Shown piece after piece: positions 17,402 through 59,770 of a stretch of DNA of 64,000 nt. The stretch's first letter is position 1. Every line of letters starts with the position of its first letter. The translations under genes were made by a program, and so were the position numbers. The DNA is from a bacterium (GTDB taxonomy: Bacteria; Armatimonadota; JACIXR01), in assembly GCA_014360495.1 (NCBI GenBank), contig JACIXR010000009.1, positions 1 to 64,000 on the forward strand, read 5' to 3'. Below the pieces are notes generated by a model that saw only the letters and a program-made list of their open reading frames with translations, did no database searches and was not told the DNA's origin.

Positions 17402-18259
17402 ATGAAGCTCGTGATTATAACTGGTGTTTCCGGAGCGGGGAAGACCCAATGTATGCATTTCCTTGAGGATTTGGGATATTTCTGCGCCGATAATATCCCA
17501 CCTTCCCTCCTTCCTCCTCTCTTGAGGATGTGCCATTCCCATGGCGGATTTGAGAGGGTAGCTGCAGTTGTTGATGCGAGGGGAGGCGAGTTCCTAAGCG
17601 AGCTCCTTAAAACATTGGAACGAGAAAGAAAGGAAGGAGTGGATGTAAAGCTCGTGTTCTTAGATGCAAGGGACGATGTCCTCATTAATCGCTTTAAGGA
17701 AACTCGTAGAAAGCATCCCCTTCTCCAGCAAGGAAGGACTATATCTGAAGCTATAAAGGAAGAGAGACGCAGACTCAGCGAAATAAAAGATTCCGCGGAT
17801 TTGATAATTGATACTTCCGCCCTTCGCCCTGCTCAGCTGAAGGAAAGATTGCGGGAATACTTCGCGGGCGAAACTCAACCCCTTACCATCTCCATCATCT
17901 CCTTCGGCTACCAGAATGGAATCCCTATGGAAGTTGACCTTCTCTTTGATGTTCGTTTCCTCCCCAATCCCTATTACGAGGAAGAGCTCAAAGAACTAAA
18001 CGGTTTAGACGAGAGAATTAAAAGATTCGTGCTGGATAGTGAAATCACCAAGGAGTTTATGAGGTATTTGATGGATTTCCTCCGCTTTACCCTTCCTTTC
18101 TATGAGAAAGAGGGTAAAGCGTATCTTTCCATTGGAATAGGTTGCACGGGTGGAAGGCACAGGTCAGTCGTGATAGGGGAGGAGTTAAAGAGGATTTTGA
18201 AAGAAGAGGGCTATAGCGTGGTTGTTTTTCATAGGGATTTGGAGGTTGGAGAGGAGTAA
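17402..18259 (+). CDS. rapZ: RapZ/YvcJ nucleotide-binding protein
   Basis: 285 residues, standard length. Walker A is G8-VSGAGK-T15. The C-terminal domain carries the conserved GCTGGRHRSV segment and the sentence-like ISFGYQNGIP (usually SFGYKYGIP). In enterobacteria RapZ binds GlcNAc-6-phosphate and presents small RNAs to RNase E; elsewhere the conserved partner is YvcK, as here. The stop overlaps the next start by one base (TAATG). Confidence 0.95.
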   Translation: MKLVIITGVSGAGKTQCMHFLEDLGYFCADNIPPSLLPPLLRMCHSHGGFERVAAVVDARGGEFLSELLKTLERERKEGVDVKLVFLDARDDVLINRFKETRRKHPLLQQGRTISEAIKEERRRLSEIKDSADLIIDTSALRPAQLKERLREYFAGETQPLTISIISFGYQNGIPMEVDLLFDVRFLPNPYYEEELKELNGLDERIKRFVLDSEITKEFMRYLMDFLRFTLPFYEKEGKAYLSIGIGCTGGRHRSVVIGEELKRILKEEGYSVVVFHRDLEVGEE

Positions 18260-19584
18260 TGAGAAAGATAACGAGAAAGATTTATCGCTTGGTAGGTGGG
18301 CGAAAGACATGGGCAAGGATTAGGAGACGCCTTAGGTGGCTATATCCAGGTATGGGGGTAAAGAGATGGATTCTCCTCTCCCTTCTGGGTGCTGTTCTTT
18401 TCTGCGGTGGAATCATCCTCCTTTTTGAATTGAGGCTCCTTGATGTTCTCGGCTGGACAATCAAACAATTCTATCTCTTCACCGGCAAATTATTGCCCAC
18501 TCCTTGGGCGGGAGTTGGGCTCCTTTTTATAGGGACAACGATATTAGTGATTGCTATCCAGAGGGCGATAAAGGGAATATTGGTCAATGTTAAAACGCCA
18601 AAGGGTAAATCCCTCTCCGATGTCATCTATAACAGAAAGTTTCTCTCTTCTGGTCCCAAAATCGTAACTATAGGTGGCGGGACGGGGTTATCCACTATAT
18701 TAAGGGGTTTGAAGGAATTTACCTCCAATATCACCGCAATTGTGACTGTGACAGACGAGGGCGGTTCCTCAGGAAGGTTGAGGAAGGATTACAATATTCC
18801 TCCACCAGGCGACATAAGGAACTGCCTTGTGGCTCTCGCGGAGTGCGAGCCCTATATGCAGAACCTTTTCCAATTCAGATTTGATAAGGGAGAGGGTTTA
18901 AAGGGGCATTCCTTGGGAAATCTCCTCATCACCGCAATGACGAGGATAACTGGGGATTTTGAGAAGGGGATAGAGCAGATAAGCGATATTTTGGCCGTCA
19001 GAGGGAGGGTTCTACCTTCTACAAAGGAGAGGATAACCCTCAAAGCGGAAATGGAGGATGGGCAAATCGTAGTGGGTGAGACGAATATAGTCAGTTATGG
19101 CAAAAGGATAAAACGTCTCTTCATAGAGCCGCTGGCTTCCCTCCTGCCCGAAGCTGAGGAAGCGATAAGGTCGGCTGATTTGATAGTCATCGGACCGGGG
19201 AGCTTATATACGAGCCTTTTGTCCAATTTGTTAATTGAGGGTATGGTTGAGGCTTTGGAGAGCAGTAGGGCGAAGAAGGTTTACATTTGCAATTTGATGA
19301 CGGAGAAGGGGGAAACGGATGGCTTCAAGGCTTCCGACCATATAAAGGCGATAAGGGAAATGATAGGAAAGATTCCCTTCCAATATGTTATTGTCAATAC
19401 AACTCGTCCACGTCCTGAGATACTGGAGAAGTATAAAGAAGAGGGTGCCGATTTCGTTGAGCCAGATATAGATGAATTGAGGAGGATGAGAGTGAGGGTG
19501 ATAGCCCAACCGCTGATGCGTCAATTATTGCCCCTTCGCCACGATACCAGGAGGCTCGCACAACTTTTGATTTCCCTTTGTTGA
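18259..19584 (+). CDS. yvcK: YvcK-family UDP-GlcNAc-binding/gluconeogenesis factor with N-terminal membrane anchor
   Basis: 441 residues. Two membrane helices (about 36-56 and 77-97) precede the soluble YvcK/CofD-like domain that starts near 132 with KIVTIGGGTGLSTILRGLK; the TDEGGSSGRLR and PPPGDIRNCLVAL motifs are intact. YvcK binds UDP-sugars and links cell-wall precursor supply to central metabolism. The membrane-anchored form is common outside Bacilli. Coupled to rapZ by a one-base overlap. The hairpin downstream has its T-tract on the other strand, so it probably serves the convergent gene more than this one. Confidence 0.93.
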   Translation: MRKITRKIYRLVGGRKTWARIRRRLRWLYPGMGVKRWILLSLLGAVLFCGGIILLFELRLLDVLGWTIKQFYLFTGKLLPTPWAGVGLLFIGTTILVIAIQRAIKGILVNVKTPKGKSLSDVIYNRKFLSSGPKIVTIGGGTGLSTILRGLKEFTSNITAIVTVTDEGGSSGRLRKDYNIPPPGDIRNCLVALAECEPYMQNLFQFRFDKGEGLKGHSLGNLLITAMTRITGDFEKGIEQISDILAVRGRVLPSTKERITLKAEMEDGQIVVGETNIVSYGKRIKRLFIEPLASLLPEAEEAIRSADLIVIGPGSLYTSLLSNLLIEGMVEALESSRAKKVYICNLMTEKGETDGFKASDHIKAIREMIGKIPFQYVIVNTTRPRPEILEKYKEEGADFVEPDIDELRRMRVRVIAQPLMRQLLPLRHDTRRLAQLLISLC

Positions 19585-23346: not shown

Positions 23347-23907
23347 CTATAAGCCGAGGAAGAAGCGATATAGGCGGGTATCCCCCGTTAGCTCGGGGTG
23401 GAAGGCGCAGGCGAGAAGGTTTCCCTCCTTAGCCAAAACTATTTTATCATCAATTTGTGCTAAAACCTCAACAGAGGGAGCGACGCTTGTTATGATGGGA
23501 GCTCTGATGAATATCGCTCTAAGAGGTGGTCCTTCCATTCCTTTAATCTCCAAATCGCTCTCAAAGGAATCCCTCTGCCTGCCGAAGGCATTTCTTCTAA
23601 CAGTTATGTTCATTAGACCCAAAAGCGGTTGCTGATGGTCCTCTACCTTCTTAGCCAAGAGAATCATACCCGCGCAGGTGCCGAGTATGGGCATTCCGTT
23701 CTTTGCCCTCTCCACTATTTTCTCCCTCAAGCCCCAGCGAGTGAGTAGGATGCCCATCGTGGTAGATTCTCCACCGGGGATGACGAGGGCATCTATTTTA
23801 TTTAAACCTTCCTCGTCCTTAACAAGGAAAGCTTCCACTGGGAGACTCCTTAAAACTTCAAGATGTTCTTGAAAATCGCCTTGTAAAGCGAGGACTCCTA
23901 CCTTCAT
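23347..23907 (-). CDS. pdxT: Pyridoxal 5'-phosphate synthase glutaminase subunit
   Basis: 186 residues. Class I glutamine amidotransferase: nucleophile C78 in GTCAGM, oxyanion PGGEST (44-49), and His/Glu in AFHPE. It supplies ammonia to PdxS. ATG 23907 overlaps the pdxS stop by one base and suits the family start ([12 protein letters not shown]); an upstream in-frame TTG lies inside pdxS. Confidence 0.97.
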   Translation of the reverse strand: MKVGVLALQGDFQEHLEVLRSLPVEAFLVKDEEGLNKIDALVIPGGESTTMGILLTRWGLREKIVERAKNGMPILGTCAGMILLAKKVEDHQQPLLGLMNITVRRNAFGRQRDSFESDLEIKGMEGPPLRAIFIRAPIITSVAPSVEVLAQIDDKIVLAKEGNLLACAFHPELTGDTRLYRFFLGL

Positions 23908-24794
23908 TACCAACCTCTCGTTGCCAATAGGTCTTTATCCTCAAGTTTTCTTATATCAATACCCGGCATTGGCTCGCCAAGTCCTTCCGATATCTGGGCG
24001 AGGATTTGAGGATTATCGTAATAAGTAACCGCGTCAACTATCGCCTTAGCTCTGGCGTAAGGGTCTTCGGACTTGAAGATTCCCGAGCCTACGAAAACCG
24101 CTTCCGCTCCCAACTGCATCATAAGAGCTGCGTCTGCGGGAGTCGCTATTCCACCGGCGGCGAAGTTGGGAACGGGGAGGCGACCGTGTTCCGCTACCCA
24201 TCTAACTAACTCATAGGGAGCGCCCAATCTCTTAGCTTCCGCCATCAACTCCTCTTTAGGAAGAGCGGTTAACCTCCTTATCTCGTCCATTATCAGACGC
24301 ATATGGCGGACAGCCTCAACGACATTTCCCGTTCCCGCCTCGCCCTTCGTCCTAATCATCGCCGCCCCCTCGGCGATTCTGCGAAGTGCCTCTCCCAGAT
24401 CCCTCGCTCCGCAAACGAAGGGAACGGTAAATTTATGTTTATCTATATGATGGGATTCATCTGCGGGAGTGAGCACTTCCGATTCGTCAATGAAGTCAAC
24501 GCCCAAAGCCTCGAGTATTTGCGCCTCTACGAAGTGTCCGATTCTGCACTTAGCCATAACGGGGATGGTTACAGCTTCCATAATTTCCTTAATCTTCGCA
24601 GGGTCAGCCATTCTTGCAACCCCGCCCTGCGCCCTGATGTCGGCGGGAACCCTCTCAAGAGCCATAACGGCAACTGCTCCCGCCTCCTCGGCAATCTTTG
24701 CCTGTTCGGCGTTGGTAACATCCATTATGACTCCGCCTTTGAGCATCTGGGCGAGACCAACTTTAACGCGCCAAGTTCCAGTCAAAATCTGCAT
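23907..24794 (-). CDS. pdxS: Pyridoxal 5'-phosphate synthase subunit PdxS
   Basis: 295 residues from ATG 24794, the usual length, with GGAGG eight bases ahead; an earlier in-frame start would add 14 atypical residues. Family motifs are intact: [64 protein letters not shown] and [17 protein letters not shown]. The TIM-barrel enzyme makes PLP from ribose 5-phosphate, glyceraldehyde 3-phosphate and ammonia. First gene of the leftward pdxS-pdxT-propeller-larB operon. Confidence 0.98.
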
Positions 24795-25366
24795 ATCATT
24801 CGCCTCCAAATTTTTAATTTTACCTTTTAATCTCAAAAAGTCAATATTCTGTATAATTCCATGGTATTTGAGACTCCTTAGGAGATTTCCCCTTATTGGT
24901 TGACTATAATTCTGAAGGAGAATCTTCGGTTCAGGAAATCTCCAAGTTCCCCCGCAAATTCGCTTCTGTTATCCATCCCAACACAACTCACAGTGAGGGA
25001 AGATACCTTGTTTATACAGCTAATGGTTAAAAACTGCCTCTTCTAAGCCTTTTTAGTCCGATAAGGACACCCTTTACTTCAAAATAAGAGATTGCCATTG
25101 CTTCCTTTCAGGAAACCTTGCAATGACAATTTTATGGCTGTCATTATGAGGGCACCCTCTCTTTCATTGCGAGCCTGACTGTGTAAGCACTTGGACATGG
25201 CAATCTCTTTTTTGTGTAGGTCCCCACTGCCATTGCAAGGAGCGAAGCGAAGAAGCAATCTCGTAAAAAAACCATATGCGCTCAAAAGGAATTTCGCTTG
25301 ACTTTAACTTGCCAAAATTTAAAATTTATTTTTGTATTTCCTTTAAAGTAAGGAAGGTGATTGGTA
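24795..25366. other. Intergenic region with mobile-element-end repeat and hairpin repeats
   Basis: Holds a copy of the TTTGAGACTCCTTAGGAGA repeat at 24867-24890, whose homology with the copy at 46984 extends about 60 bases, and the hairpin repeats at 25083-25275. The stretch between them shows neither a gene nor clear structure. Confidence 0.7.
25083..25275. repeat. Interspersed hairpin repeats
   Basis: Three modules: GAGATTGCCATTGC with TTCCTTTCAGGAA and CTTGCAATGACA (25088-25130); CATTGCGAGCC to GGCAATCTC (25165-25209) in the opposite orientation; and GCAAGGAGCGAAGCGAAGAA followed by GCAATCTCGT (25236-25264). Same conserved ends as other copies with different inner arms. Confidence 0.8.
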
Positions 25367-25732
25367 TTGCAATTCAGGGAGATGCTTCGCGCCAAAATAC
25401 ATAACGCTCGTGTAACGGATGTTCTTCTCCATTACGAGGGAAGCATTACTATTGATAAGGAACTTCTTAAGGCATCCGGCATTTTGCCGGGAGAGAAGGT
25501 TCAGGTTTTAAATCTCAACAATGGACAACGCTTCACAACTTATGTGATAGAGGGGAAAAAAGGAGAAATTATATTAAATGGTCCTGCTGCTCGCCTCGCT
25601 TATCCCGGTGACATCGTCCTCGTCTTGGCTTATAGTCTCGTGAGCGAGGACGAGGTAAAGAACTGGACCTATAAAGTAATTTATCTGAATGAGAACAACG
25701 AAATCACCAAAATTGAAGAAAAAGGAGGATAA
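25367..25732 (+). CDS. panD: Aspartate 1-decarboxylase
   Basis: 121 residues. The self-processing site is G25-S26 in YEGSITID, giving the pyruvoyl cofactor at S26; NGPAARL and PGDIVLVLAY are also family motifs. It makes beta-alanine for pantothenate and CoA. TTG 25367 is chosen: GGAAGGTG lies seven bases upstream and it gives the family-like QFREMLRAKIHNARVT start. Other pan genes are absent here. First gene of a six-gene operon. Confidence 0.95.
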   Translation: MQFREMLRAKIHNARVTDVLLHYEGSITIDKELLKASGILPGEKVQVLNLNNGQRFTTYVIEGKKGEIILNGPAARLAYPGDIVLVLAYSLVSEDEVKNWTYKVIYLNENNEITKIEEKGG

Positions 25733-27868: not shown

Positions 27869-28587
27869 ACAAGGAAGAATACGAGAGGATGTTCCTACTT
27901 GAAGATTTCTATTGGTGGTTTAAGGGACGAAGAGAAATCCTCCTCTCAGCGATAAAGGGAATAGAGGCGAAAGATGTCTTGGATGTTGGCTGCGGCACGG
28001 GAGGTAATCTAACCCTATTCAATGGATTTGTTGTCGGCTTGGACGTTTCCCTCCAGGCTTTGAAATTAGCCCAGAAAAGAAAGCCTGAAGCAATCCTTTG
28101 CCGAGGGGAAGCGGAGAACCTTCCCTTCAAGGACGACTCCTTTGACCTCGTCCTCGCTTTGGACTTGCTTGAACATCTTCCAGATGATATACAAGGATTG
28201 CGGGAAATGCATAGGGTGCTTAGGAAAGGCGGAAATGTATTGATTACCGTGCCGGCATACAAATTCCTCTGGAGCGAGCACGATGAGGCGCTCCATCACT
28301 TCCGCAGATATTCCAAATGTGAGCTGAAAGGGAAGATGGAGGGAGTCGGCTTCAAAATAAAATTCCTCTCTCACGCAATCGTCCTCCCTTTCTTTCCCAT
28401 TGCTTTGTTTCGTCTCCTGCAAAGATTCACAAGAGGGACTAATAGGGAACCGAAGACATCGCTCATAATCCTCCCTACCATCCTCAACGAAATCCTCTTT
28501 CGTATCTTATTAGGAGAAGCGAAATTGATAGAAAGGGGGATATCCTTTCCCTTCGGTGTCTCCATAATTTGCAGAGGTGAGAAATGA
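27865..28587 (+). CDS. Class I SAM-dependent methyltransferase
   Basis: 240 residues. Motif I is VLDVGCGTGGNL, motif II GLDVS, motif III LALDLLEHLPDD and post-III VLRKGGNVLITVPAY, giving a Methyltransf_11/UbiE-like Rossmann fold. The C-terminal part (about 175-225) is hydrophobic and may touch the membrane. Four-base overlap with the GT2 gene suggests joint work on a lipid-linked glycan; the acceptor is unknown. Confidence 0.85.
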   Translation: MNKEEYERMFLLEDFYWWFKGRREILLSAIKGIEAKDVLDVGCGTGGNLTLFNGFVVGLDVSLQALKLAQKRKPEAILCRGEAENLPFKDDSFDLVLALDLLEHLPDDIQGLREMHRVLRKGGNVLITVPAYKFLWSEHDEALHHFRRYSKCELKGKMEGVGFKIKFLSHAIVLPFFPIALFRLLQRFTRGTNREPKTSLIILPTILNEILFRILLGEAKLIERGISFPFGVSIICRGEK

Positions 28588-29633
28588 GAGAGGAAATAAG
28601 AGAAATTCTGAAAAAGCTTATCGCTATTCCCTCCCCAACTAAGGAAGAGGAAAGGATTTGCCTTGAAGTTGAGGGAATCCTCAAATCTATGGGATTCTCC
28701 CTCACCAGACAGGAGGTCAGACCGAGAGCCTACAATTTGATTGCCAAAAGAGGGGAAAGCCCGCTACTCATCTCCACCCATCTTGATACTGTTCATTCTT
28801 ACGGACATCCCAACCCCTTTGAGTTGTTGGAGGAGGATGGCAATTTTATTGGCAGAGGGGTGGTGGATGCTAAGGGGCAGTTGGCATCCCTTTTAGTAGC
28901 CCTGAAACACTCAAAGGGTGCATGCCAGCTTGCCCTTACCGTGGACGAGGAGGGAGAGGGAAAGGGCTCAGAGGTTTTGGAGATAGAAGCTGAGGAAGCG
29001 CTCGTCTTGGAGCCTACGAATTTTGAGCTTTGCCTTTCCGAAGCCGGTTCTTTGGAATATGAGATTGAGGTAAAGGGTAGGGCAACCCATTCCGCAACCC
29101 CGGAAAGAGGGGAAAACGCCATCCTCAAGGCTTATTCCCTCTATCAAGAGCTTCATAGTCTATCAATTATGAAAGCTCGCCATCCCCTTTTCCCACCACC
29201 ATCTATAATCTTGACGAAGATAGAGGGAGGAGACTTCATAACCCTCGTTCCTTCATCCTGTAAGATTCAGATTGACATCCATATACTCCCAAATGTAGAC
29301 ATAGAGAAGGCGAGGGAAGAGATTGAGGGATTTCTCTTATCAAAAGGCGTAAGTTATCGCTTGATTGACGTGGCGCACCCCTTTGAGATATCCGAGCCCC
29401 CTAAGATATGCGATATCATAGGGGAATTTATGGAGAAAAAGGAAAGGGAAAAGAGATTCGGAGGTATGAGGAGCTGGACGGACGCGGCTAATCTAATAAG
29501 GAAGGGGATAAAACCCGTCGTTTTCGGTGCGGGAGACTTGGCTATAGCTCATTCCCAGAGGGAATGGGTGAAGGCGGATGATTTGCTTTTCCTTACGGAG
29601 GTTCTTATCTATCTAATAGATAACTATAAATGA
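28584..29633 (+). CDS. M20-family metallopeptidase/deacylase (LysK/ArgE-like)
   Basis: 349 residues. Di-zinc ligands and catalytic residues are visible: STHLDT (His, plus catalytic Asp), RGVVDAKGQ (bridging Asp), VDEEGEGKGSE (catalytic Glu and ligand), LEPTN (Glu) and AHSQREW (last His). The lid/dimerisation insert lies about 165-275. Members cut acyl groups from amino acids or dipeptides; sequence tone is closest to LysK/ArgE/DapE. No lysine or arginine pathway gene is adjacent, so the substrate is open. Coupled by overlap to both neighbours. Confidence 0.88.
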   Translation: MREEIREILKKLIAIPSPTKEEERICLEVEGILKSMGFSLTRQEVRPRAYNLIAKRGESPLLISTHLDTVHSYGHPNPFELLEEDGNFIGRGVVDAKGQLASLLVALKHSKGACQLALTVDEEGEGKGSEVLEIEAEEALVLEPTNFELCLSEAGSLEYEIEVKGRATHSATPERGENAILKAYSLYQELHSLSIMKARHPLFPPPSIILTKIEGGDFITLVPSSCKIQIDIHILPNVDIEKAREEIEGFLLSKGVSYRLIDVAHPFEISEPPKICDIIGEFMEKKEREKRFGGMRSWTDAANLIRKGIKPVVFGAGDLAIAHSQREWVKADDLLFLTEVLIYLIDNYK

Positions 29634-30667
29634 GGAGATTTGCTCTTCATTCTGTTTGGGAGGAAGCAGGCGATAGGATAGCGAGGGAAGGTGGTGTGGC
29701 AATGGTGGTGGGCGCTGTGGACATAGGGAAGAGCACATTTTGCGCCGCCGTAGCCTTCCATGCCCTCCAGTATCATAAGATTGTTGCTGTGGTGGATGCG
29801 GATGTGGGTCAATCCGATATCGGACCACCGGGGACAATCGGGATGGGTTTCGCCCATCCCGGTATGAATGAATTGGGAGATATCCCTCTCTCCGCATTAT
29901 ATTTCATCGGAGATATATCCCCGCAGGGTCATTTCCTTGATATGGTGGTGGGGACCCAAAAGATGGTGGAAAAGGCTCTCTCCTTGGGAGCCGAGCTCGT
30001 TATAGTTGATACAACTGGGTTGGTGAGCGGGATGGTGGCGAGGAAGCTAAAGGGATTCAAGATAGAAGCTATTCGCCCAAACTATGTGGTGGCTTTGCAG
30101 AAAGGAGGAGAGGTTGAGCATATAATAAAGGGTTGGGAGAAAACGAGCTGGTTGAGGATTTATCGCCTTCCTCCTTCCCCAATGGCAACTCCTCGCTCAT
30201 ATGAGGAACGAAGGGAGAACAGGGAAAGAAAGCTCAGGGAGCATTTCGCGAATTCGGAGATTTATGAGCTCTCATTAGATAATATAGCCTTTCGCAACTC
30301 TCCCATCTTCTCTTCCCCTCCGCTTCATCCTTCGCTCTTTTTGAGGTTTGAACTGAAATTGGGGGCTAAAATCCTTTGGGGTGAGGGGGACAAATGGGGG
30401 CTGACGCTTGTTGTTCGCGGCGAAAATAGATTTTATTCCACTTATCTTTTGGAGAAAGAGGTGGGGAGGAGGATAAATATAATCAGGGAGGAGGAATTGT
30501 TGAATAGGTATGCAGGGATAATGGATGAAAGGGGAGAATATATGGATGTCTGTGTTCTAAAAGAGATAGATTTCTCGGCGAAAAAATTGAAAATCCTCAC
30601 TCCCTTTAAAGATGTTCAGAAGATTGCAACCATCAGTTTAGGCTCGCTTAAAATAGAGGGACTTTAG
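29630..30667 (+). CDS. Clp1/Grc3-like P-loop polynucleotide 5'-kinase
   Basis: 345 residues. Walker A G28-AVDIGKS-T36 and Walker B-region DADVGQSDIGPPGTIG are typical of the Clp1/Grc3/Nol9 family (CLP1_P), along with VDTTGLVSG. Family members phosphorylate RNA 5'-hydroxyl ends in eukaryotes and archaea; bacterial members are sparse and their role is unclear. The C-terminal half (about 230-340) is beta-rich and not recognised. The ATG overlaps the M20 stop (ATGA), so it is the last gene of the panD operon; no RNA repair ligase is nearby. Confidence 0.8.
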   Translation: MRRFALHSVWEEAGDRIAREGGVAMVVGAVDIGKSTFCAAVAFHALQYHKIVAVVDADVGQSDIGPPGTIGMGFAHPGMNELGDIPLSALYFIGDISPQGHFLDMVVGTQKMVEKALSLGAELVIVDTTGLVSGMVARKLKGFKIEAIRPNYVVALQKGGEVEHIIKGWEKTSWLRIYRLPPSPMATPRSYEERRENRERKLREHFANSEIYELSLDNIAFRNSPIFSSPPLHPSLFLRFELKLGAKILWGEGDKWGLTLVVRGENRFYSTYLLEKEVGRRINIIREEELLNRYAGIMDERGEYMDVCVLKEIDFSAKKLKILTPFKDVQKIATISLGSLKIEGL

Positions 30668-30834: not shown

Positions 30835-31473
30835 ATGGATAAGATGAGGCTATACTTCGCCCGACATGGAATGACCGAGTGGAACGATGATGGAAAGATG
30901 CAGGGAAGAACGGATGTCCCTTTGAACGAAGCAGGCATCTTGCAGGCGAGATTGCTTGCCAAAAAGCTTGCCAATCTACCCCTCAAAGCGATTTACACCA
31001 GCCCTTTAAGCAGGGCTATGAAAACAGCGGAAATCATAGCTCGCCCTCATAATCTGGAAGTGATACCTGTTCCCTCCTTGCAGGAAGCCGATTTCGGTAA
31101 GTGGGAGGGGCTTACGATTGAGGAAATAAAGAGCGGATGGGGAGATGAATTGGAGCTTTGGTATGAGGGAAAATCGCTGCCGCCCGAGGGAGAGGGAATT
31201 CTGGAGATGCAGAGGAGGGTGGTTGAGTTCATAGAGGAATTGAAAGAGAAGCATAAAGGGGAGGAAATTCTTTTAGTTGCTCATGGTGGACCGATAAGAG
31301 CTTTCGTTTGCCACATCCTGGGAACTCTAAAGCCTTTCAGGAGAATAAAACAGGCTAACGCAAATATCAATATCTTTGATTATTTTGAGGAATGGGGCTG
31401 GCAGATAGTTGCTTTAAACGATACCTGCCATCTTGCTGAGGAACTTCATAGCGATATGGAGGACGGTTATTGA
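30835..31473 (+). CDS. Histidine phosphatase family protein (phosphoglycerate-mutase-like/CobC-like)
   Basis: 212 residues. Catalytic RHG motif in LYFARHGMTEWN, SPLSRAMKTAEII for the second arginine, EADFGKWEG for the acidic residue, and VAHGGPIRA for the second histidine. It hydrolyses a phosphomonoester: alpha-ribazole phosphate, phosphoglycerate and sugar phosphates are all possible and cannot be separated by eye. ATG 30835 is adopted, but GGAG lies 17 bases away and ATG 30844 is also possible. A poor promoter (TATAAT at 30773-30778) may serve it. Confidence 0.9.
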   Translation: MDKMRLYFARHGMTEWNDDGKMQGRTDVPLNEAGILQARLLAKKLANLPLKAIYTSPLSRAMKTAEIIARPHNLEVIPVPSLQEADFGKWEGLTIEEIKSGWGDELELWYEGKSLPPEGEGILEMQRRVVEFIEELKEKHKGEEILLVAHGGPIRAFVCHILGTLKPFRRIKQANANINIFDYFEEWGWQIVALNDTCHLAEELHSDMEDGY

Positions 31474-58358: not shown

Positions 58359-58985
58359 TTATCTTAACCAAGCAGTTCCGCTGGCGAAGAAGTAAGCTCC
58401 GATGAAGATGAGGACAATTCCTCCCACTTGAGTGATGATTCTCTCATATCTCTCCAGCTTCTTCTTTCCACCAACAGTGATGGCTCCAACGAATAGATAC
58501 CAAACGAAGTCCGCCAAGATATGTCCTATGAAGAACGCAGCTACTCCCAGGATTCCTTTTTTTACCCCCATCAAGAGAAAGTTCAGCCCAATCGCAAACC
58601 ACCAGAGATACCAGTATGGATTGGACAAGGTGGCTATTCCGCCCAAAATGAAGGAGTTTCCCGTCTTTTCGTTTCCCTCTCTTTCTGTTTCCTCGCCCCT
58701 CCACATCCCATAGCCAAGATAACCGAGCGCTATCCCGCCTATTATTCCTATCACTGAGACAATCAAATTGTTTTGAGATATCATCTTCGCAGTGAAAAGA
58801 AGTATCGTTAGCATAATTAGCTCCAAAACCCCATGAGCTGCAACCACTATGAAGGGTGTTTTTATCCCCTCCCTGAGGGATTTAGTGATTGTGACGACAA
58901 GAAGGGGACCGGGGCTAGCTGCCCCAACGAAGGCAACAGTGAAGGAGAGGATGAAGATGGTGTAAAGGGAAGGGGTGTTGCTCAT
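58359..58985 (-). CDS. LysE/RhtB-family amino-acid exporter
   Basis: 208 residues with six membrane helices. The family lead AASPGPLLVVTITKSLREG (first loop, after helix 1) and LSNPYWYLWWFAIG (mid-protein) are characteristic. It exports amino acids or related metabolites across the inner membrane by proton exchange; substrate unknown. ATGA overlap with ymdB makes it the last gene of dnaE-ymdB-lysE. Confidence 0.9.
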   Translation of the reverse strand: MSNTPSLYTIFILSFTVAFVGAASPGPLLVVTITKSLREGIKTPFIVVAAHGVLELIMLTILLFTAKMISQNNLIVSVIGIIGGIALGYLGYGMWRGEETEREGNEKTGNSFILGGIATLSNPYWYLWWFAIGLNFLLMGVKKGILGVAAFFIGHILADFVWYLFVGAITVGGKKKLERYERIITQVGGIVLIFIGAYFFASGTAWLR

Positions 58986-59770
58986 TGGGAGATTATTACT
59001 TTGTCCCTCCTTACGGAAAGCGCTTTACCGGTTTGGGGGTCTATTTCCAAATAAAGAGAGCAGACCATTGCTGGTCCTTCAGCTACCTCGAATTTCCTCG
59101 GCGTCGTATAAAGAAATCGCTCAAGTACCTGTTCCTTCTTAACTCCTATTATTGAATCAATCGGTCCCGTCATCCCGATATCAGTGATGAAAGCGGTGCC
59201 GTTGGGGAGTATTCGCTCATCGGCTGTGGGAATGTGGGTATGAGTTCCTATGACAGCTGAGACCTTGCCATCCAGGAAAACCCCTAATGCTCCCTTCTCC
59301 GAAGTCGCTTCAGCGTGGAAATCCACTATTATTATCGGCGTCTCTTTTCTCATTTCCTCTATAATCCTTTCCCCCACCTCAAAGGGGGAATCAATAGGTT
59401 CCATAAATATCCTCCCCATTAAATTTATAACACCTATCTTATATCCCCCTTTAGTGGTGAAGATGCCCGCCCCCCTTCCCGCTACCCCTTTAGGATAATT
59501 TGCGGGTCTAAGGATGCGGGGGTCGCTTTCTATTATCTCGATTCCTTCCTTCTTGCTCCAGGCGTGATTGCCGAGCGTAAGGCAATCTATCCCCATTGAG
59601 AAGAGTTCTTCAGCGACATTCCTCGTTAAGCCAAAGCCGCCAGCTGCATTCTCAGCGTTGACAAGCATAAAATCCACATCTTCCTTCATCTGGTTGATAT
59701 AAGCCTTCAATGCCTTCCTTCCACTCCTCCCCACCACCTCCCCTAAATGAACGATTTTTATTGCACCCAT
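58982..59770 (-). CDS. ymdB: YmdB-family metallophosphoesterase
   Basis: 262 residues. Motifs: VNAENAAGGFG, TLGNHAWSKKE, VDFHAEATSEK and GTHTHIPTAD, clear for the TIGR00282/YmdB family, cyclic-nucleotide phosphodiesterases that affect biofilm and motility decisions. The usual first metal ligand (GDIVGR) is here GEVVGR (E11), a conservative acid change. Start overlaps the dnaE stop by 13 bases. Confidence 0.93.
   Translation of the reverse strand: MGAIKIVHLGEVVGRSGRKALKAYINQMKEDVDFMLVNAENAAGGFGLTRNVAEELFSMGIDCLTLGNHAWSKKEGIEIIESDPRILRPANYPKGVAGRGAGIFTTKGGYKIGVINLMGRIFMEPIDSPFEVGERIIEEMRKETPIIIVDFHAEATSEKGALGVFLDGKVSAVIGTHTHIPTADERILPNGTAFITDIGMTGPIDSIIGVKKEQVLERFLYTTPRKFEVAEGPAMVCSLYLEIDPQTGKALSVRRDKVIISQ

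Follow-up and report, generated by a model that had tools for sequence, protein, structure and literature searches.

The gene at positions 29630-30667 (+) of the DNA analyzed here raises the question of what a protein related to Clp1 and Grc3 does in a bacterium, and on which substrate it acts. The window, the whole stretch of DNA that was analyzed, comprises 64,000 nucleotides of contig JACIXR010000009.1 from an Armatimonadota genome (GCA_014360495.1). The open reading frame begins with ATG and encodes 345 amino acids, and it is the single clp1 copy in a genome of 2.55 Mb that is 97% complete.

Family assignment and fold of the clp1 gene product

The protein had been placed in the Clp1/Grc3 family in an earlier note on the basis of the motifs GAVDIGKST and DADVGQSDIGPPGTIG, both of which are present in the open reading frame as claimed. 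Membership in this family is established by profile and by fold. The Pfam model CLP1_P matched residues 28-207 with 122.6 bits (cut-off 26.6, E = 2.2e-35), while every other Pfam match remained below its own cut-off and at 13.6 bits or less, and no NCBIfam model matched at E up to 0.1. A phmmer search of the PDB with the window protein retrieved the Clp1 chain 8hmy_E (E=2.7e-9). A profile built from 73 relatives matched Clp1 (96.7 and 86.3 bits), NOL9 (69 bits) and GRC3 (58 to 42 bits), and these were the only PDB chains matched well beyond the P-loop region, barring two EngA matches of 22 residues each that lie elsewhere in the profile.

An AlphaFold2 model computed from 73 window and locus sequences had a mean pLDDT of 95.1. 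In this model the protein has the Clp1 fold, with a P-loop (PNK) domain at about residues 21-207 and a C-terminal domain at about 210-345, and it is without the eukaryotic-type N-terminal domain. Foldseek ranks 1-23 were all Clp1, Grc3 and NOL9 chains. Using VIA-align, the model was superposed on human Clp1 with Z 28.0 over 278 residues at 2.7 A and on C. elegans Clp1 with Z 27-28; Clp1 superpositions overall covered 278-282 residues with an rmsd of 2.7-3.0. The superposition spanned residues 1 to 344-345 and thus included the C-terminal domain in the Clp1 match.

Sub-threshold matches confined to the surroundings of the P-loop could be taken to mean that a protein of another P-loop family (MobB, SRP/FtsY or MinD-type) had been mistaken for Clp1. 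The SRP54 profile, however, gave 13.6 bits, under its cut-off of 22.7, MobB was absent among the Pfam matches at E up to 0.1, and the first unrelated structure, of SRP type, had a Z of 12.5 compared with 28 for Clp1. No closer match to another P-loop family arose in the profile search, the point on which the earlier note had let its family call depend. With the distance between 122.6 and at most 13.6 bits, a mistaken family has practically no chance of being correct and is already refuted.

Catalytic motifs and the altered clasp

The ATP-binding motifs of the window protein are complete. Walker A, GAVDIGKST (residues 28-36, positions 29711-29737, +), has the form GxxxxGK[S/T] and Walker B has the form [D/E]hhQ, both belonging to the four motifs of Clp1 kinases; the Walker B core is DADVGQ (residues 56-61, positions 29795-29812, +). 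In an alignment of 73 homologues, G28, D31, G33 and K34 of Walker A and D56, D58, G60 and Q61 of Walker B were invariant, and D58-V-G-Q61 is the same DVGQ that occurs in human and C. elegans Clp1. The lid (positions 30194-30223, +) has the form RxxxxR as R189-SYEE-R194 and is followed by an invariant R198; R194 and R198 were kept in all 136 aligned rows.

The clasp is different. In Clp1, the clasp tryptophan stacks on the 5' base. The corresponding position of the window protein, located by alignment of homologues and by profile alignment to NTCGW of Clp1, reads TTGL (residues 128-131, positions 30011-30022, +), with Leu131 replacing the tryptophan. Published Clp1 kinases have the clasp [T/S/L]xGW (PMC6777427). 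Among 56 Armatimonadota proteins residue 131 was L in 24, F in 13, Y in 12, M in 4, W in 2 and H in 1; figures for 56 rows include L120, which is grouped elsewhere in the alignment tally of 55 rows.

In a tree of 104 sequences, comprising neither short Thermus-type nor eukaryotic sequences and leaving out the shortened L082, a clasp tryptophan was present in 17: seven of 10 archaea, eight of 39 other bacteria and two of 55 Armatimonadota. This pattern is explained by four changes on the tree. The three sequences of the window genus formed one fully supported group (SH-aLRT 100), which fell outside the main Armatimonadota group (40 rows) in a weakly supported placement.

The altered clasp bears directly on activity. 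According to a report on Clp1 proteins (PMC10598085), the inactive yeast and T. brucei type 1 proteins differ from active ones chiefly in the clasp, and kinase activity of the window protein can thus not be assumed. The protein might even bind ATP merely as a scaffold and be inactive, as is the case for yeast Clp1, which is described there as being without kinase activity and as having a changed clasp. We consider such a scaffold highly improbable, as at least 73 diverse sequences show no variation at the Walker A, Walker B and lid residues and no conserved neighbor needing a scaffold was found in the Armatimonadota loci.

Distribution of Clp1 in bacteria

CLP1_P was detected above its cut-off in 110 of the 237 Armatimonadota genomes that were at least 85% complete. 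An earlier contig scan with the single window protein as query had yielded no relatives; a pattern scan of GTDB r220 with an alignment query then gave 377 confirmed relatives. The best 80 of these 377 were kept, a sample biased to Armatimonadota-like sequences, and they include, by record title, Bacillota, Rokubacteria, Methylomirabilota, Caldilineales, Riflebacteria and archaea. The window protein and the sampled relatives are long forms with the C-terminal domain.

In a 2019 survey, Clp1 was described as extremely rare among bacteria, occurring in 14 of 1,543 complete genomes, and as being without the archaeal C-terminal domain (PMC6777427). The spread of Clp1 observed here is wider than 14 of 1,543, the two sets of figures differing in genome sets and thresholds. 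The earlier note had confined the known members of the family to archaea and eukaryotes, which is outdated: the 2019 report describes an RNA kinase from Thermus scotoductus, Ts-Clp1, that phosphorylated RNA well and DNA poorly (PMC6777427). Our literature searches found no paper in which Clp1 is linked to Armatimonadetes or to a histidine phosphatase.

An origin of clp1 from a mobile element was also considered and rejected, since searches of a plasmid collection and, with one peptide pattern, of viral contigs gave no match.

Genes upstream of clp1

The gene located upstream of clp1 (28584-29633, +) encodes an M20 peptidase/deacylase and overlaps the clp1 start by ATGA. By Pfam and NCBIfam profiles its product is nearest to ArgE/DapE-like deacylases, under all their listed cut-offs. 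The two sister genomes (L061 and L062) have the same 4-base overlap. The overlap described in the earlier note is real, but the coupling does not extend beyond the genus: the M20 gene lies directly upstream of clp1 in three of 56 Armatimonadota loci, all from the window genus. Since it is confined to the genus, the coupling says little about function and was rejected as a functional clue. The gene run is headed by panD, encoding aspartate decarboxylase (25361-25732, +; PF02261, E=5.5e-43). The earlier note had put clp1 at the end of a panD operon, but clp1 is not a clear end of the run, as a histidine phosphatase gene follows it closely in the two sister genomes.

Other genes of the window and of the related loci were recorded as well. 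A pdxS-pdxT-like pair (pyridoxal phosphate synthase; 23347-24836, -) lies just upstream of the panD run, with pdxS called by Pfam SOR_SNZ and pdxT recognized by eye. At 17402-19584 a RapZ-like gene is directly followed by a CofD-like gene, which we take to be the usual bacterial yvcJ-yvcK pair. A YmdB-like metallophosphoesterase is encoded at 58982-59770 (-), 28 kb from clp1; the YmdB family acts on cyclic nucleotides. In 16 of 56 Armatimonadota loci (e.g., L074 and L101) clp1 is closely preceded by a gene on the opposite strand, whose product has about 168 amino acids and a hydrophobic stretch in its N-terminal part; one copy of this protein gave an Rv0361-like match below the cut-off.

A histidine phosphatase gene downstream of clp1

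The gene following clp1 (30835-31473, +) encodes a histidine phosphatase of 212 amino acids (Pfam His_Phos_1, E=2.1e-63) and is the sole His_Phos_1 match in the window genome. The gap to clp1 is 167 bases in the window, and 3 and -29 bases in the sister genomes. A total of 61 Armatimonadota loci were compared (60 fetched regions and the window), and a histidine phosphatase was found directly behind clp1 in 26 of them, a recurrent neighbor that had been missed in the earlier reading.

Five of the 61 clp1 genes were missed by simple ORF calling and recovered by six-frame search; tables of 56 loci omit these five, two of which also carry an adjacent phosphatase. On six-frame translations of the 56 loci, a phosphatase profile matched in 25 loci, once each, where the 18 genes from which the profile had been built match by construction; beyond these, six more adjacent phosphatase genes were found and only one distant. 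The matches were located on the same strand and within 360 bases downstream of clp1 in 24 of the 25 cases, often with an overlap of 1-4 bases; L063 and L097 are among the loci in which the two genes overlap. The same profile gave no match on the 49 loci treated as non-Armatimonadota. The paired gene was the only His_Phos_1 match in nine of 24 pair genomes, and 29 of the 32 genomes without the adjacency carried His_Phos_1 elsewhere. The pairing changed about ten times on the tree. Pairing of clp1 with a phosphatase gene in Armatimonadota is hence recurrent but labile, and the phosphatase encoded at 30835-31473 is a possible functional partner of Clp1.

The phosphatase carries the RHG and HGG motifs, and several specific histidine-phosphatase models matched it, none above its cut-off. 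Its closest solved relative is the phosphoserine phosphatase PspA (E=1.8e-33). Genes of serine synthesis gave the following picture: among genomes with no His_Phos_1 gene other than the clp1 neighbor, all nine tested had serA, serB was above its NCBIfam cut-off in none of 36 Armatimonadota genomes tested, and the HAD family PF12710 had no match in the window genome (G000). On these grounds the window phosphatase may supply the missing phosphoserine phosphatase. The kinase would then act on RNA, its neighbor would be a phosphoserine phosphatase with a housekeeping role and no mechanistic meaning would attach to their pairing, an explanation that is compatible with the kinase function proposed below and that we rate at somewhat less than an even chance. 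It is opposed by the score with the NCBIfam PspA model NF045917, which was 144.6 bits against a cut-off of 350, and by the position aligned to His85 of PspA, a residue presumably needed for phosphoserine, which was occupied by F in 14, L in three and K in one of 18 partners (Phe in the window). Furthermore, of the eight other genomes with a single phosphatase, six had a PF12710 match above its cut-off, and the direct adjacency to clp1 recurs in 26 of 61 loci. The gene may nevertheless encode a phosphoserine phosphatase of a type other than PspA.

The CobC model TIGR03162 (alpha-ribazole phosphatase) gave 147.7 bits with the window phosphatase (cut-off 162.9), and the partner phosphatase from another genome (L101) passed it at 164.6. 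CobS was absent from the three genomes of the window genus (G000-G002); of the 56 clp1-bearing genomes, 11 carried it. Because CobS is missing from the genus, an alpha-ribazole phosphatase is argued against, and a link to B12 was rejected in this organism, CobS also being missing from 45 of the 56 clp1 genomes. A cobalamin adenosyltransferase-like gene, recognized by eye, was seen near clp1 in four loci.

The phosphatase and the clasp together bear on another alternative, in which the clasp-less bacterial branch would consist of kinases of nucleosides, nucleotides or small metabolites and the phosphatase would work in the same small-molecule pathway. The free variation of the clasp position next to unvarying ATP-binding motifs agrees with this, as do the closest solved relatives of the phosphatase, whose names refer to small phospho-metabolites as substrates. 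However, the lid arginines and the C-terminal domain are kept, three archaeal proteins without the clasp tryptophan lie among tryptophan-bearing ones in the tree, and the distribution of CobS makes a B12 version unlikely in the genus. We regard a small-molecule kinase as rather unlikely.

RNA-processing genes in the genomes and neighborhoods

That no RNA ligase gene lies near clp1, as the earlier note had stated, holds for the families tested, the RtcB and RNA_ligase matches of the window genome being located on other contigs. No conserved RNA ligase or nuclease neighbor of clp1 was found in the Armatimonadota loci. RtcB was detected in 47 of 56 clp1 genomes and in 188 of 237 across the phylum; an association with clp1 was rejected since RtcB occurs widely in the phylum whether Clp1 is present or not. 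The window genome has a single PF09414 (RNA_ligase) match, which scored 28.2 bits against a cut-off of 27. The matching protein, of 542 amino acids (L205:501-2129; G000:C5), is an ATP-dependent DNA ligase with three domains (PF04675, PF01068 and PF04679), and an RNA ligase partner in this genome was accordingly rejected. PF09414 was above its cut-off in two of 26 pair genomes, the window genome being one of these.

In some Armatimonadota genomes RtcB was encoded in one uninterrupted frame of about 990-1060 amino acids, in which the RtcB match broke off after about position 46-50 and resumed later, as would result from an intein (G181:C16:53806-56550, G184:C16:126775-129474 and G032:C146:10720-13566; also G175 and G019).

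Different neighbors were found outside the Armatimonadota. In seven of the 49 non-Armatimonadota loci (L123, L124, L127, L136, L154, L173 and L188, mostly Bacillota-type by title) a YhaM-like exoribonuclease gene (OB-fold plus HD) was located on the same strand one to two genes upstream of clp1. Two of these proteins were scanned and gave 150 and 185 bits with NF010007 (cut-off 460). A BshC-like gene, recognized by eye, lies downstream in six of the seven loci, and the YhaM link comes from one related Bacillota group with generally shared gene order. Seven loci with a clasp tryptophan (L174, L178, L182, L183, L186, L196 and L197) contain a gene of 133-170 amino acids directly upstream (at about 200-340 bases), and four of them have a DHH-family-type gene further upstream, of which one was scanned. 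The YhaM-like and DHH-type neighbors weakly hint at RNA or nucleotide turnover, in genomes that are related to each other.

Proposed function

The window protein is probably a kinase of 5'-OH RNA (or oligonucleotides) with a modified clasp that takes part in RNA-end processing or turnover. This is the favored function in view of the family, the fold with its C-terminal domain, the full set of residues for ATP binding and the lid, and the active bacterial relative Ts-Clp1; archaeal relatives align over both domains. The recurrent histidine phosphatase and, weakly, the YhaM-like neighbors outside the Armatimonadota also count in its favor. It is opposed by the missing clasp tryptophan, together with the reported change of inactive eukaryotic Clp1 proteins especially in the clasp (PMC10598085), and by the neighborhoods in Armatimonadota, where no conserved RNA ligase or nuclease was found.

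As a P-loop kinase of the Clp1 family, the protein would phosphorylate polynucleotides at their 5'-OH, using the gamma-phosphate of ATP. The most likely substrate would be RNA, or short oligonucleotides, with a 5'-OH left by an endonuclease, and the altered clasp would change how the terminal 5' base is held. The 5'-phosphate product may feed RNA decay or ligation. The phosphatase could serve this pathway by removing 3'-phosphates or by recycling nucleotides, but it is no less likely to have a housekeeping role that is unrelated to the kinase. A stricter version, a two-gene end-healing cassette of the Armatimonadota in which the clasp-less Clp1 phosphorylates 5'-OH ends and the histidine phosphatase removes 3'-phosphates, is quite improbable in our estimation. 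If true, such a cassette would be a PNKP built from two folds, delivering 5'-P/3'-OH RNA to decay or ligation, against or alongside RtcB.

If clasp-less forms phosphorylate RNA, this fold can do without the clasp tryptophan; otherwise, they would be expected to act on a new kinase substrate. The recurrent phosphatase offers a concrete two-enzyme system. Beyond the earlier reading, the analysis adds a widespread clasp-less branch of full-length bacterial Clp1 proteins, the recurrent phosphatase partner and the prior literature on bacterial Clp1.

Comparison with known enzymes

The window protein resembles Ts-Clp1 in being bacterial and in having the CLP1_P domain with Walker A and Walker B. By the description given in its report (PMC6777427), Ts-Clp1 is set apart by a size of about 27 kDa and a conserved clasp, whereas the window protein has 345 amino acids, a C-terminal domain and no clasp tryptophan. 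Archaeal Clp1 of the Pyrococcus type shares the PNK and C-terminal domains, and archaeal relatives align over their full length; however, the clasp tryptophan was present in seven of 10 sampled archaeal proteins (no Pyrococcus among them) and is missing from the window protein. Eukaryotic Clp1 (C. elegans 4ohy and human 8hmy) has the same two-domain fold, with Z of about 28, but differs in an extra N-terminal domain, according to the literature, in a TCGW clasp and in an identity to the window protein of 16-19% over the structural alignment. Grc3 and NOL9 share the PNK domain and the fold (Z 18-23) but are larger, contain extra domains and have profile scores below those of Clp1.

The PNKP-type enzymes, such as T4 Pnkp and bacterial Pnkp/Hen1, resemble the window pair in the concept of joining a 5'-kinase to a phosphatase. 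These enzymes contain kinase and phosphatase in one chain, the latter as a HAD or calcineurin-like domain, whereas in the window the phosphatase is a separate histidine phosphatase and a putative partner of Clp1.
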